From assembly GCA_019636195.1 (NCBI GenBank), contig JAHBYA010000017.1, positions 1 through 64,000 on the forward strand: 64,000 nucleotides of DNA. The letters are read 5' to 3'. Under the pieces are notes generated by a model. That model saw nothing but the letters and a program-made list of their open reading frames with translations. It ran no database searches and was not told the DNA's origin. This DNA is from Planctomycetota bacterium. GTDB lineage: Bacteria; Planctomycetota; UBA8742; UBA2392. Position numbers and translations under genes: made by a program. Positions 7,178-64,000 of this stretch are shown one piece after another; positions within the stretch are counted from its first letter, which is position 1; the number at the start of each line of letters is the position of its first letter.

Positions 7178-8053
7178 ATGATCAGGTGTTCAGGACACAG
7201 CCTGCGATTGACGTTGGGGGTGCTGCTCTTGCTTGCGGGCTCGCTGTCGGCGCATCCGCTGGATGACAACGCCGAACTGATCGTGCGCTTGCGCGTGGCC
7301 GACGAGCGCAGCTACGAATTGACCCTGGAGTTTCGCTACAAGGGCGTGATCGCCAGCTACACCGAGTTCCGTAACGGCCTTGACCGCAACCTCGACGGCC
7401 GCGTCACGCGCAACGAAATGAAGGCGCGCTTCGTTGAACTTGCCGACGAAATCGCGCTTGGCCTGCAACTGTCGCTGGACGGCAATCGGCTGCAACTTGA
7501 GCCGCAGCTTGAGCGCTTTGCCCTGCACCACGCCGACGACCCCAACGGCAAACCGTGGGACGAAATCGAAACCGCCACCGCCAACATCTTCTATCGCTTC
7601 GTTTACATCGCGCGCGGCGACCCCGCGCCCGGCGAACGCGTCCTGGCCTTTTCATTCATCAGCCCGCAGACAGTCGTGCACACCCCGCGCGACCAGTTGC
7701 TCGCGTTCAGCGCCGCAAATGAGCCGCTGCCCGTCGTGCACGATGTCGAAAGCGGCGTGTTTCCGCGCATGACCGCTAGGTTCAAGGTCGCTGCGCCGGC
7801 TGTGCAGCCCAAGCCGCCGGCCCCGGAGCTGCCGCTCCCTGACCCGCTGCCCGCCCCGCGCGGCTTCGGCGAGTTGCCGGGCTGGCTGGCGTTGGGTGCA
7901 GGCGGTGGGCTGAGCCTGCTGGGCCTGTTGCTGCTGGCGCGGCGGATGCTGCGCAAGCAGGGCAGCATCGCGGTTTCCCTGACTGTGGTCGTTGCGGGCC
8001 TGCTGTCACTGCTGGGCGCGCTGGTGCGGCTGGGACTGATCAAGCTGGTGTAA
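7178..8053 (+). CDS. secreted membrane-anchored protein with one EF-hand-like loop
   Basis: The protein has 291 residues with a signal peptide ending near 'SLSAHPLDD'. The luminal part is beta-rich and holds one calcium-loop-like stretch, DRNLDGRVTRNE (about residues 69-80), which fits the EF-hand pattern D-x-N-x-D-G-x-V-x-x-x-E. After a Pro-rich linker (about 205-225) come two C-terminal membrane segments (about 235-252 and 263-288) separated by a short basic loop. The N-terminal pattern (HPLDDNAELIVRL) recalls proteins found beside HupE/UreJ- or nickel/cobalt-type transporters, but no such transporter is adjacent. The function is unknown. Confidence 0.65.
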   Translation: MIRCSGHSLRLTLGVLLLLAGSLSAHPLDDNAELIVRLRVADERSYELTLEFRYKGVIASYTEFRNGLDRNLDGRVTRNEMKARFVELADEIALGLQLSLDGNRLQLEPQLERFALHHADDPNGKPWDEIETATANIFYRFVYIARGDPAPGERVLAFSFISPQTVVHTPRDQLLAFSAANEPLPVVHDVESGVFPRMTARFKVAAPAVQPKPPAPELPLPDPLPAPRGFGELPGWLALGAGGGLSLLGLLLLARRMLRKQGSIAVSLTVVVAGLLSLLGALVRLGLIKLV

Positions 8054-59078: not shown

Positions 59079-60656
59079 ATGAAGGCGATGGACCCCAACC
59101 TGTTTGACTCGGGCAACGACTTAGGCCGTCGCTACGTCACTGATTTTGCGCGCGTTGAAACCTTCTATGCCGGCGACTACCGCCGCCCGGAGCACCTGGC
59201 GGCTTTTGCCACGCGCCTGCTGAACCGCACCTGGAAACCGCGCTTTGACCGCAAGCTGGCGGCGCAACTTTTGCGCGACTACACCGCCCAGCACCACGCG
59301 CCGCAGGCGGTGCACGCCAACATCGACAAGCTTGAAGCGCCCGACTGCGTGTGCGTCGTCACCGGCCAGCAGGCCGGGCTCGGCGGCGGGCCGCTGCTGG
59401 CGCTGTACAAGGCGGTCACCGCCATCCGGCTGGCGCGCGAAGTTGAAAGCATCAGCGGCCAGCCCTGCGTGCCGGTGTTCTGGAACGCCAGCGACGACAG
59501 CGACGTCGAGGAAGTCAACCGGCTGCGCGGCATCAAAGACGGCAAGCTGACGCGCTTTCGCTTCAAGCTGAACGCCGGCAAGCGCCATGTGCGCGAGATT
59601 GTGCTGCCCAGCCGCGACGACCCGCAGTGGGGCGATGCCGCGGCGGCGCTGAATGACGGCCCGTACGCAGAGCGCGCGACGGTGCTGCTGCGCGACGCGG
59701 CAGGCCGCGATTTCGGCACAGCGTTCACGCGCCTGATGCTTGAGCTGCTGGGCGGGCGCGGCCTGGTGGTCATTGAGCCCAAGGCACTTGCCGCCCACCC
59801 GGCGTGGCGGCGCATCCACGCCGCGGAAATCGAAAACGCCGACGAGCACGCATACCAGGTGCTGCGCATGGCCGACCGGCTTGAAAGCAACGGCTTGCCG
59901 GCGGGCGTGAACATCACCAACCACCTGAACCTGTTTGTCACCGTCAACGGCGAGCGACGCCACGTCAGCAGCGACGGCAAGCGCTTCTTCATTGAGGGCC
60001 GGGAAGAGGGCCTTTCGCGCACCGCCCTGCTGAAAGAGCTCAAGGACAACCCGGCCGGCTTCACGCCCAACGTGCTGCTGCGGCCGCTGGTCCAGAACGC
60101 GATTTTTCCGACCGTCGCCTATGTCGGCGGCATGGCGGAGATCGCCTACCACGGCTTGCTCAAGCCGTTGCACCGCAGCCTATCCGTGTTCATGCCCGCG
60201 CTGTTCCCGCGGCTTTCGATGACCATTCTGCGCAACCAGGATGCGCGATTGTTTGACGAGGCGGTGGCGTTCCGGCGCCGGCTCAAGCGGCACCAGGCGG
60301 AAGCCGGCATCGTTGAAGAAAGCACCCGAGCGGGCATCAAGGAGGCCTTCGCCGCCCTGCGCACGGATTTGCTGGGGCTGGGCCGCGGCCTTGAACCGGA
60401 GTTGCAGCGCCTTGAGCAGCGCACCCAGCGCGGCGTAGCCGACGTGATGAACCGGGTGCAGCACGATGCGCTGGCCCTGATGGAGGGCGGCAGCAACCTT
60501 GAACCGATCCTCAACCGCTACTTCCCTGAGGACAAACCACAAGAGCGCGTGATCAGCCTGCTGAGCCTGTACGCCGAACTGGGCCCGCAACTGATTGAAC
60601 TGGCGGAAGACAGTGGCGACGTGTTTGACTTCCAGCACCGGGCGGCGGTGGTGTAG
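59079..60656 (+). CDS. bshC: bacillithiol biosynthesis cysteine-adding enzyme
   Basis: BshC is thought to add cysteine to glucosaminyl-malate in the last step of bacillithiol synthesis. The 525-residue protein has the family motifs 'CVVTGQQAGLGGGPLLALYKAVTAIRLA' (about 91-118), 'PVFWNASDDSDVEEVNRLRG', 'PNVLLRPLVQNAIFPTVAYVGGMAEIAYH', and the C-terminal coiled coil. Length is close to the usual 530-540. The fold is that of a class I tRNA-synthetase-like nucleotide-binding domain. Neither BshA nor BshB is in the window. An ATG three codons in (59088) is possible. Confidence 0.92.
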   Translation: MKAMDPNLFDSGNDLGRRYVTDFARVETFYAGDYRRPEHLAAFATRLLNRTWKPRFDRKLAAQLLRDYTAQHHAPQAVHANIDKLEAPDCVCVVTGQQAGLGGGPLLALYKAVTAIRLAREVESISGQPCVPVFWNASDDSDVEEVNRLRGIKDGKLTRFRFKLNAGKRHVREIVLPSRDDPQWGDAAAALNDGPYAERATVLLRDAAGRDFGTAFTRLMLELLGGRGLVVIEPKALAAHPAWRRIHAAEIENADEHAYQVLRMADRLESNGLPAGVNITNHLNLFVTVNGERRHVSSDGKRFFIEGREEGLSRTALLKELKDNPAGFTPNVLLRPLVQNAIFPTVAYVGGMAEIAYHGLLKPLHRSLSVFMPALFPRLSMTILRNQDARLFDEAVAFRRRLKRHQAEAGIVEESTRAGIKEAFAALRTDLLGLGRGLEPELQRLEQRTQRGVADVMNRVQHDALALMEGGSNLEPILNRYFPEDKPQERVISLLSLYAELGPQLIELAEDSGDVFDFQHRAAVV

Positions 60657-60904: not shown

Positions 60905-62587
60905 GTGGCAGGCCAACAGCAGCAGTACTACGAACAGCCGGCTGACCAGCAGTACTACGGGCAGGAAGAAGCACCGCCCGCAGGTGAGACCGGCGAAGAT
61001 CTTACCGCGCTGGCGTCGGTGCCCTGGGTGGCAATCGCGCTGGCAGTTCACGTGATCATGCTCGTGATCATGTGGTTCATCATTCCGGCTGGCCCGGCAC
61101 GGGTGAAGATCGACATCATCAAGGCCCAGCAGGAACAGATCGCTGAGCCGCCTCCGCCCGAGCAGAAGCCCGAGAACGAGACCGAGTTCCCGAAGGACGA
61201 GCCGGAGCAGGAAAACCCGACCGAAGACGAGAAGATCGTCGAGGAGGCCACGGACGACGTCAACGAGGACCCGACCGACAAGCCCAACGAAGACCTTGCC
61301 GAAAACCCGAACGACAACCCGTCGGACAACGAGTCACCGCACCCGAACCGCAACAGCACGACCAGCGCGGTCGGCTTGGGCGGCGGCGTGGGTGGCGGCG
61401 GTGGCCGCGGCGGCGCGGGCGGCTTTGCCTATCGCCGGGCGCGTGGCGGCGGCGGTCGTCCCCGTGAGGACCGCATGCGTGCCGCGCTTGAGTGGCTGAA
61501 GGACCACCAAAACGCGGAAGGCCACTGGAGCGCCACAACCTTCAGTGCCGACACCAAGCGCGTGAACGCCCAGAAGACCTACAACATCGACCACGTCGCA
61601 ATCGGCAACCCCGATGGCGACAAGGGCTGGGAGCAGACCACCGACATCGGCCTGACGGGCCTTGCCCTGCTGGCCTTCGTCGGCGCCGGCTACGACCACA
61701 AGGAAGGCGACTACCGCGCCACCTGCCGCCAGGCGATCCTTTACCTGCGCAAGGTCCAGAGCAACGACGGCTGCTTCGGCCCCAAGGAAGACGACCACTT
61801 CGTGTACAACCACAGCATCTGCGCCATGGCCATGGCCGAAGCCTACGGCCTGAGCCTTGACCCGGTGCTGAAGCCGATCGCCGACAAGGGCGTCGAGTTC
61901 ATCCTGCGCGCCCAGAACCCCGGCCTTGGCTGGCGCTACGGTGTGCAGCCGGGCATCAACGACAGCTCGGTGACGGGCTGGATGGTGCTTGCGCTCAAGT
62001 CGTGCAAGATGGCCGGTCTGGAGTTCGACAGCACCAAGTGCTACAGCGACGCGTTTGAGTGGTTCAAGATGGTGACCGTGGACGTCAACGGCTACCCCAA
62101 GTGCGGCTACGACAGCCCGGGCAGCAACAACGCCCGTCTGCGCACCGCCGACAGCTACGAGCACAACCCGGCCATGGACGCCATCTACGTCATGAGCGTG
62201 CTGTTCATGGACAAGGCTGACCTCAAGGACCGCACGGTGCAGACGCTGTCCAAGATCTGCGTCGATAAGGCCTACCTGCCGAGCTGGGAGAAGAACAAGA
62301 TTGACTACTACTACTGGTACTACGCCAGCCTGGCACTGTACCAGGTCGGCGGCAGCAACTGGGCGGCCTGGGAAAAGTCCATGGCCAAGACCCTGCTGGA
62401 CTACCAGCGCGGCTACCACGCCGAAGACGTCAAGAAGGGCCTTGTCAACAAGGAACTGCTCGACGAACACGGCAGCTGGGATGCCTGCGACGCCTGGAGC
62501 ACAGCCGGCGGCCGCGTGTACTCAACGGCCATCAACTGCCTGACGCTGCAGGTGTACTACCGCTACCAGAAGATGCACAAGGACTAG
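60905..62587 (+). CDS. membrane-anchored prenyltransferase/squalene-cyclase-type repeat protein
   Basis: The 560-residue product opens with a Gln/Tyr-rich arm, a single membrane segment (about 42-63, 'VAIALAVHVIMLVIMWFIIP') and an acidic Pro/Glu/Asn-rich linker (about 75-150), a layout like TonB. A Gly-rich hinge (about 155-190) follows. From about 195 the alpha/alpha-barrel pattern of prenyltransferase and squalene-oxidase repeats appears: 'ALEWLKDHQNAEGHWS', 'TGLALLAFVGAGYDH', 'AILYLRKVQSNDGCFG', 'GVEFILRAQNPGLGWRYG' and 'VTGWMVLALKSCKMAG'. The DxDD cyclase motif is absent. The barrel would sit outside the inner membrane and bind rather than cyclise. This architecture is frequent in planctomycetes. 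Confidence 0.82.
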   Translation: MAGQQQQYYEQPADQQYYGQEEAPPAGETGEDLTALASVPWVAIALAVHVIMLVIMWFIIPAGPARVKIDIIKAQQEQIAEPPPPEQKPENETEFPKDEPEQENPTEDEKIVEEATDDVNEDPTDKPNEDLAENPNDNPSDNESPHPNRNSTTSAVGLGGGVGGGGGRGGAGGFAYRRARGGGGRPREDRMRAALEWLKDHQNAEGHWSATTFSADTKRVNAQKTYNIDHVAIGNPDGDKGWEQTTDIGLTGLALLAFVGAGYDHKEGDYRATCRQAILYLRKVQSNDGCFGPKEDDHFVYNHSICAMAMAEAYGLSLDPVLKPIADKGVEFILRAQNPGLGWRYGVQPGINDSSVTGWMVLALKSCKMAGLEFDSTKCYSDAFEWFKMVTVDVNGYPKCGYDSPGSNNARLRTADSYEHNPAMDAIYVMSVLFMDKADLKDRTVQTLSKICVDKAYLPSWEKNKIDYYYWYYASLALYQVGGSNWAAWEKSMAKTLLDYQRGYHAEDVKKGLVNKELLDEHGSWDACDAWSTAGGRVYSTAINCLTLQVYYRYQKMHKD

Positions 62588-62698: not shown

Positions 62699-64000
62699 AT
62701 GTCCAAGAAAAAGAAGCAGCAAAGTCAGCGCAACGCGCCGCCGGCACCGCCGCCAGCACCCGAGGCGCCGTACCTGCCCGCGCCCATCCGGGCGCTGGAC
62801 GCCGACTATTCGCAGGTGCTGCGCATGCGCAACGTGCGCTGGCTGATCGTCATGGCCGCCGTGGTGGGCGCGCTGATCCTGGGCTGGTACCTGAGCGCGG
62901 TGTTTGTGCCGCTGCTGGTGGCGCTGGCAACGGCCTACATTCTGAACCCGCTGGTCGTGAAACTGCAAAAGAAGGGCATCTCGCGCACCCGCGCCGTGCT
63001 GTGGATCTTCATCATGTTCATTGTGCTGGGCGCAGCCGTCGGCAGCTGGGTGGCGCTCAGCGTCGTGCGCGACGTGCAGGAGATCTCGGCCCAGGCCCAG
63101 GACATGTGGGAGGACTTCAAGGCCAACAAGGACGAGTGGGTCGCCAGCTACAACGAGATCGTGCCCGGCGACATGCAGCTTGACCCCAAGGAAGACGCCA
63201 TCGGCAAGGTCGGTGAAGCCGTGGTCAAAGAGCTGTTTCCCAGCGCCAGCCAGGTCGAAGAGCCTGAGCGGGTGGCCGCCCGCGCCGCCATGACCAGCGC
63301 CCGCGCCGACCTGCTGGCTGCGTTTCAACAGGTGGACAAGAGCGGCGACATGGTGTTGACACCCGCCGAGGTGGATGCGCAGACCTTCAAGGCGATGGAC
63401 AAGGACGGCGACGAACGCGTCACCACCGACGAATGGTTCATCTACTTCGGGTCGTCGCCGCCCACCACAGAGGGCCGCGGCGTTTCACCCCAGACGCAGC
63501 AGGCCGTGGACAAGCTGGTGTCGTACATCGGCGACGGCCTTGCGGGCGTGTTGACCCTGCTGTTGTTCATAACGCTGGTGCCAATTTACACGTGGTACTT
63601 CATGGTCGGCTTCGACAAGGTCGTGGCCAAGGGTCGCGAATACCTGCCCGGCGCGCACCGCCCGCGCATAGAGAAGATCCTCACCGAAATCGACGCCATG
63701 ATGCGCGCCTTTTTCCGCGGCCGCATAGTCGTCGTCTTCATCATCACCGTGCTTACAACCATCGTCTATCTGGTCTTCGGCGTGAAGTACGCCGTGCTGC
63801 TGGGGCTAATGTCCGGCCTTGGCGTTCTGATCCCGTACTTTTCCATGGTCGCGGGCTGGATACCGGCCATCATCATCATGCTGATCAGCGGCGACAGCTG
63901 GGGCGCGATCATCGGCATGAGCATCGGATTTCATGTGATCCAGGCCTTCGAGCAGTACGTGCTGACGCCCAGGCTGCTGGGCAACGCCGTTGAGCTGCAC
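62699..64000 (+). CDS. AI-2E-family permease with an inserted EF-hand pair, 3' end outside window
   Basis: The frame is open from the ATG at 62699 to the window edge (434 codons). A Lys-rich, Pro-rich N-terminal arm (1-47) precedes membrane segments at about 48-87 and 99-123. A large extracytoplasmic or cytoplasmic domain (about 124-275) follows, then segments at about 280-303, 342-361 and 364-398. The order and 'RIEKILTEIDAMMRAFFRGR', 'YAVLLGLMSGLGVLIPYFSMVAGWIPA' fit AI-2E transporters (PerM/YdiK). Two consecutive calcium loops, DKSGDMVLTPAE (213-224) and DKDGDERVTTDE (234-245), form an EF-hand pair in the large domain. This is not usual for the family. Confidence 0.85.
   Translation, partial: MSKKKKQQSQRNAPPAPPPAPEAPYLPAPIRALDADYSQVLRMRNVRWLIVMAAVVGALILGWYLSAVFVPLLVALATAYILNPLVVKLQKKGISRTRAVLWIFIMFIVLGAAVGSWVALSVVRDVQEISAQAQDMWEDFKANKDEWVASYNEIVPGDMQLDPKEDAIGKVGEAVVKELFPSASQVEEPERVAARAAMTSARADLLAAFQQVDKSGDMVLTPAEVDAQTFKAMDKDGDERVTTDEWFIYFGSSPPTTEGRGVSPQTQQAVDKLVSYIGDGLAGVLTLLLFITLVPIYTWYFMVGFDKVVAKGREYLPGAHRPRIEKILTEIDAMMRAFFRGRIVVVFIITVLTTIVYLVFGVKYAVLLGLMSGLGVLIPYFSMVAGWIPAIIIMLISGDSWGAIIGMSIGFHVIQAFEQYVLTPRLLGNAVELH

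Follow-up and report, generated by a model that had tools for sequence, protein, structure and literature searches.

The AI-2E transporter gene and its neighbours

The window, by which is meant the whole 64-kb stretch of planctomycete DNA that was analysed, ends inside the gene of an AI-2E family transporter, the reading frame of which is still open at the last base; on the contig the gene occupies positions 62699-64180 and encodes a full-length protein of 493 amino acids (Table 1). The Pfam AI-2E_transport family (PF01594) is matched at 192.3 bits (cut-off 34.3) in two stretches that are separated by the region bearing the EF-hands, and the protein is an AI-2E/UPF0118-fold membrane transporter. 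AI-2E transporters are nearly universal and mostly functionally uncharacterised. With the full-length model of a same-genus homologue (L034), Foldseek returned Escherichia coli TqsA (YdgG; PDB 7nb6) as the top PDB match at 5.8e-6, with a TM-score by target of just 0.38, followed by YdiK. TqsA belongs to the same family (PF01594), but its chain of 344 residues carries no EF-hands, whereas the window protein has an EF-hand pair. The nearest NCBIfam models were YtvI and the chloramphenicol efflux protein CxpE, neither of which came near its cut-off.

Activities reported for the AI-2E family include AI-2 export (PMC9134010) and Na+(Li+)/H+ antiport (PMC7221264). LuxS (PF02664) was absent from all 16 genomes of the family to which the window's genome belongs, in a search whose controls detected it in E. 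coli, B. subtilis and others; export of AI-2 by the window transporter is therefore doubtful, and AI-2 is an unlikely substrate.

Upstream on the same strand, across a gap of 111 bp, lies a gene for a squalene-cyclase-like protein consisting of a single N-terminal transmembrane (TM) helix, a Pro/Glu-rich linker and squalene-cyclase-like repeats. Of 14 homologous loci, 13 have this gene upstream of the transporter gene; its protein is conserved at 62-89% and present as two or three tandem paralogues in some relatives. The two genes are possibly co-transcribed, the cyclase-like gene being context and not part of the EF-hand module.

Table 1. Positions in the window of the transporter, its parts and other genes discussed
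Feature	Position	Strand	Evidence or remark
Gene of unassigned family, secreted or membrane-anchored product (7178 protein)	7178-8053	+	single EF-hand loop DRNLDGRVTRNE
BshC (bacillithiol biosynthesis) gene	59079-60656	+	PF10079, 7.6e-73
Squalene-cyclase-like upstream neighbour	60905..62587	+	PF13243, 4.7e-7
AI-2E family transporter gene	62699..64000	+	first 434 of 493 codons in window; PF01594, E 1.6e-56
TM1-TM3 (residues 43-126)	62825..63076	+	hydropathy, charge count
TM3-TM4 domain (residues 127-272)	63077..63514	+	acidic; predicted extracytoplasmic
EF-hand pair with flanking helices (residues ~195-252)	63281..63454	+	modelled helix-loop-helix-loop-helix, block pLDDT ~78-88
EF-hand loop 1, DKSGDMVLTPAE (residues 213-224)	63335..63370	+	position 6 not Gly
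EF-hand loop 2, DKDGDERVTTDE (residues 234-245)	63398..63433	+	motif, Pfam, alignment
Conserved TM4-TM8 half, start	63515..64000	+	PF01594 positions 123-322; runs on past the window

An EF-hand pair between TM3 and TM4

The initial annotation had proposed two EF-hand calcium loops within the large domain of an AI-2E-type permease, and an EF-hand pair is confirmed between TM3 and TM4, in a domain of ~146-162 residues, at exactly the residues first named and with the loops spaced 21 residues apart. In Pfam searches of the window protein, EF-hand_1 and EF-hand_6 matched residues 228-248 at E ~1e-4, with bit scores under the curated cut-offs (22.1 vs 25.4 and 22.1 vs 25.0, respectively), and EF-hand_1 was reached at E 0.01 by nine of 15 family members. 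A profile of the TM3-TM4 domain searched against PDB sequences matched EF-hand proteins, the best at 6e-5. When the 146-residue stretch was shuffled 200,000 times, two EF loops at the 21-residue spacing never arose, and any two EF loops arose in a fraction of 2.5e-5.

Among 99 relatives searched, 15 genomes, all from the same family and counting that of the window, yielded a full-length homologue; besides the window's genome these are 14 unclassified Planctomycetota metagenome-assembled genomes (GenBank), with homologues 49-67% identical to the window transporter. In one order-level relative (L048/L111) the contig end truncates the gene ahead of the domain. The pair is present at the same spacing in all 15 homologues, ruling out a single-genome oddity or assembly artefact. 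Both loops carry oxygen ligands at positions 1, 3 and 5, a hydrophobic residue at 8 and Glu at 12 in every member: D213, E224, D234 and E245 (positions 1 and 12 of each loop) never vary, and positions 3 and 5 hold D, N or S in loop 1 and D or N in loop 2, such that all eight 1/3/5/12 columns are always D, N, S or E. Residues 127-272 contain just nine invariant columns, four of which are these loop positions 1 and 12. A side-chain oxygen is present in every sequence at 14 of the 146 columns, and all eight ligand columns fall within that set (hypergeometric 7e-10). Together with the shuffling, these statistics rule out a chance acidic motif. Mean pairwise identity is 41% in the TM3-TM4 domain vs 68% in the membrane part; the ligands are thus retained amid drifting surroundings. 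An insertion widespread with unconserved ligands, which would have argued against the original proposal, was not what the alignment contained: few residues of the domain are conserved as well as the ligands in this clade.

Typical AI-2E members had been expected to be free of such loops, which held for the AI-2E proteins of other phyla as represented by four outgroup sequences only, with 51-76 residues between TM3 and TM4 and no loop, and by TqsA. Recent capture from an EF-hand protein of the same genome was considered and rejected, the best matches there being weak (BLAST 2.7e-5 at best), and for this reason no donor is named.

Gly at position 6 of an EF loop is usual, not absolute. Loop 1 has Met or Leu at this position in all 15 members, and loop 2 has Gly in eight of 15, with Ala, Ser or Glu in the others. 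Since Met or Leu replaces the usual Gly in every member, loop 1 appears to be a non-canonical and possibly weaker site.

Models of the fold were generated with AlphaFold2 for the full-length same-genus homologue (18 sequences; mean pLDDT 65.5, pTM 0.41) and for residues 118-285 of the window protein (15 sequences; mean pLDDT 61.7). The EF region is the best-modelled part of the domain, with blocks at pLDDT 78-88, and much of the remaining domain is poorly modelled. Helices at positions 72-95, 110-116 and 126-132 (fragment numbering) and short strands in both loops make up a paired EF-hand fold. Foldseek searches with the domain model returned mainly EF-hand proteins, including calmodulin, centrin, troponin C and lanmodulin (8fnr, 8dq2); single-lobe matches had rmsd 2.0-2.5 over ~65 columns and probabilities up to 1.00, and were weak by E-value (0.07-0.2, no single match being under E 0.001).

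Membrane side and putative role of calcium

The side of the membrane on which the domain lies, which the initial annotation had left for a check, is answered as a prediction from hydropathy, charge and analogy. The N-terminus of the transporter is basic by charge count, and the TM2-TM3 loop is also basic (KLQKKGISRTR), fitting a cytoplasmic side; the TM3-TM4 domain is acidic (29 D/E vs 14 K/R). In a characterised AI-2E member, the UPF0118 Na+(Li+)/H+ antiporter of Halobacillus andaensis, PhoA fusion placed the N-terminus in the cytoplasm (PMC7221264); this protein has another proven activity and, unlike the planctomycete transporter, no reported EF-hand domain. A cytoplasmic N-terminus followed by three crossings would put the TM3-TM4 domain outside the cytoplasm, and the EF domain is probably extracytoplasmic, at the outer face of the inner membrane.

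Ligand conservation and the modelled fold make it very likely that the EF pair binds Ca2+ or a similar ion. The role favoured here, at a probability of about 0.55, is mainly structural, with periplasmic Ca2+ normally bound and the domain kept folded and in place. We infer Ca2+ as the ion, the periplasm as the side of binding, constitutive occupancy and a stabilising role: the pair, which resembles a calmodulin lobe, would take up Ca2+ from the periplasm and normally stay occupied, and the bound ion would keep the TM3-TM4 domain folded and positioned either above the membrane part or between protomers, acting as a structural cofactor such that activity or stability would be lost only at very low envelope Ca2+. 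Calcium loops of the Dx[DN]xDG type occur in diverse families, in which stabilisation and regulation are both common roles (PMC3123361). Periplasmic Ca2+ mirrors or exceeds the extracellular level, and EfhP of Pseudomonas aeruginosa, a bacterial two-EF-hand protein that is probably periplasmic, binds Ca2+ at 13.7 µM (PMC9132961). An EF-hand of micromolar affinity on the outer side would normally be saturated, which renders the gating of export by calcium, as put forward in the initial annotation, doubtful, and constitutive stabilising binding is the likelier role.

Gating nevertheless retains a minority share of the probability, since loop 1 is non-canonical: as a low-affinity sensor, the extracytoplasmic domain would open or close the transport path on loading with Ca2+, the missing Gly6 of loop 1 bringing the affinity down towards the range of Ca2+ in the envelope. 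The end of loop 2 lies ~38 residues ahead of TM4, close enough to couple, although the linker between the pair and TM4 is modelled at pLDDT under 50, suggesting a flexible tether rather than a rigid lever. EfhP shifts conformation upon Ca2+ binding (PMC9132961), although it is a stand-alone protein with Gly6 in both loops, whereas the planctomycete pair sits between the membrane helices of a transporter.

A further role, which we consider improbable, is that of a docking site at which the Ca2+-bound pair would bind cell-wall material or a periplasmic partner such as the upstream squalene-cyclase-like protein, whose linker and repeat domain would share a side of the membrane with the EF domain. 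The recurrence of the cyclase-like gene upstream of the transporter would fit such a partnership, but gene order alone is weak evidence inside one family, and the two genes are separated by others, mostly cyclase-like paralogues, in the four loci that are more distant.

In lanmodulin, a protein of the bacterial periplasm, the EF-hands lie close together and their loops are marked by Pro at position 2. The window domain matches this soluble lanthanide binder by sequence profile (6mi5, E 6.6e-4) as well as by fold, which would accord with a lanthanide, or else Mg2+ or Mn2+, being bound for metal handling; the hallmark Pro is, however, found in none of the 15 members and calmodulin-type matches are equally good, leaving another ion highly improbable. 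A non-functional relic or chance acidic stretch, to which the sub-threshold Pfam scores might point, is scarcely credible given the shuffling and invariance statistics, the conservation in 15 of 15 members and the predicted EF-hand fold.

The strongly conserved putative site offers a handle, through Ca2+ dependence and ligand mutants, on the role of the outer domain and of the transporter itself.

Calcium-type loops in other planctomycete proteins

Loops of the form Dx[DN]x[DNGS] ending in Glu were found between TM3 and TM4 in 21 of 86 other Planctomycetota AI-2E proteins, a set that is not random, proteins with long reading frames and members of family f14 having been picked deliberately; shuffling expects 0.7, and a single such loop lay outside TM3-TM4 in the same proteins. 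Because related sequences are included, the 21 proteins amount to some six lineages, not to 21 separate events. These loops mostly lie 19 residues after TM3 (some 20-51), as compared with 91 and 112 residues for the EF pair, and the EF-bearing family forms a separate branch in a quick tree (SH-aLRT 100). Common descent of the EF pair and the other loops is unsupported, given these differing positions and the separate branch; lying mostly nearer TM3, the loops appear to have been acquired separately within a single permissive stretch. Acquisition of calcium loops in TM3-TM4 of Planctomycetota AI-2E proteins thus looks recurrent in the sequences compared, suggesting that calcium chemistry was added repeatedly at one place in one transporter family. 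It is a tentative suggestion, which we hold to be less probable than its negation, that the Planctomycetota repeatedly built putative calcium modules into this stretch, as an EF-hand pair in the window's family and as one, two or twelve Dx[DN]xNG loops near TM3 in others, and so gave rise to a calcium-regulated branch of a family not known to be calcium-dependent. A search of the open-access literature found no paper joining AI-2E with EF-hands, nor AI-2E with Planctomycetes.

Among these proteins, those of family f14 (loci L117-L130) form a second clade with an additional long extracytoplasmic domain, most members having a DxNxNGxWDxGE loop ~19 residues after TM3. An AI-2E reading frame of 669 amino acids from another planctomycete family (L020; G051:C206) has twelve DxNGNGxxDxxE-type loops between TM3 and TM4, at residues ~153-358 and mostly 15 residues apart. 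The loops of L020, L025, L028, L029 and other Planctomycetota AI-2E proteins resemble the Dx[DN]xDG loops described by Rigden et al. (PMC3123361), and mostly lie nearer TM3 than the EF pair of the window.

Wider use of calcium in the envelope, raised in the initial annotation on the basis of a single EF-hand-like loop in the 7178 protein, gains support from the conservation of that loop. Its first Asp and final Glu (D1 and E12) are kept in homologues from 63% down to ~26% identity, which include paralogues of 500-600 amino acids, with N or D at position 3 and D or N at position 5; this retention suggests that the loop, too, is under constraint. PF13499 matches 24 places in the genome, spread over about ten reading frames. 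With several other putative EF-hand proteins encoded in its genome, the organism probably makes broad use of calcium binding. Further EF-hand proteins lie on contigs C20, C21, C8, C23 and C12 of the window's genome (G000), some of them many-handed.
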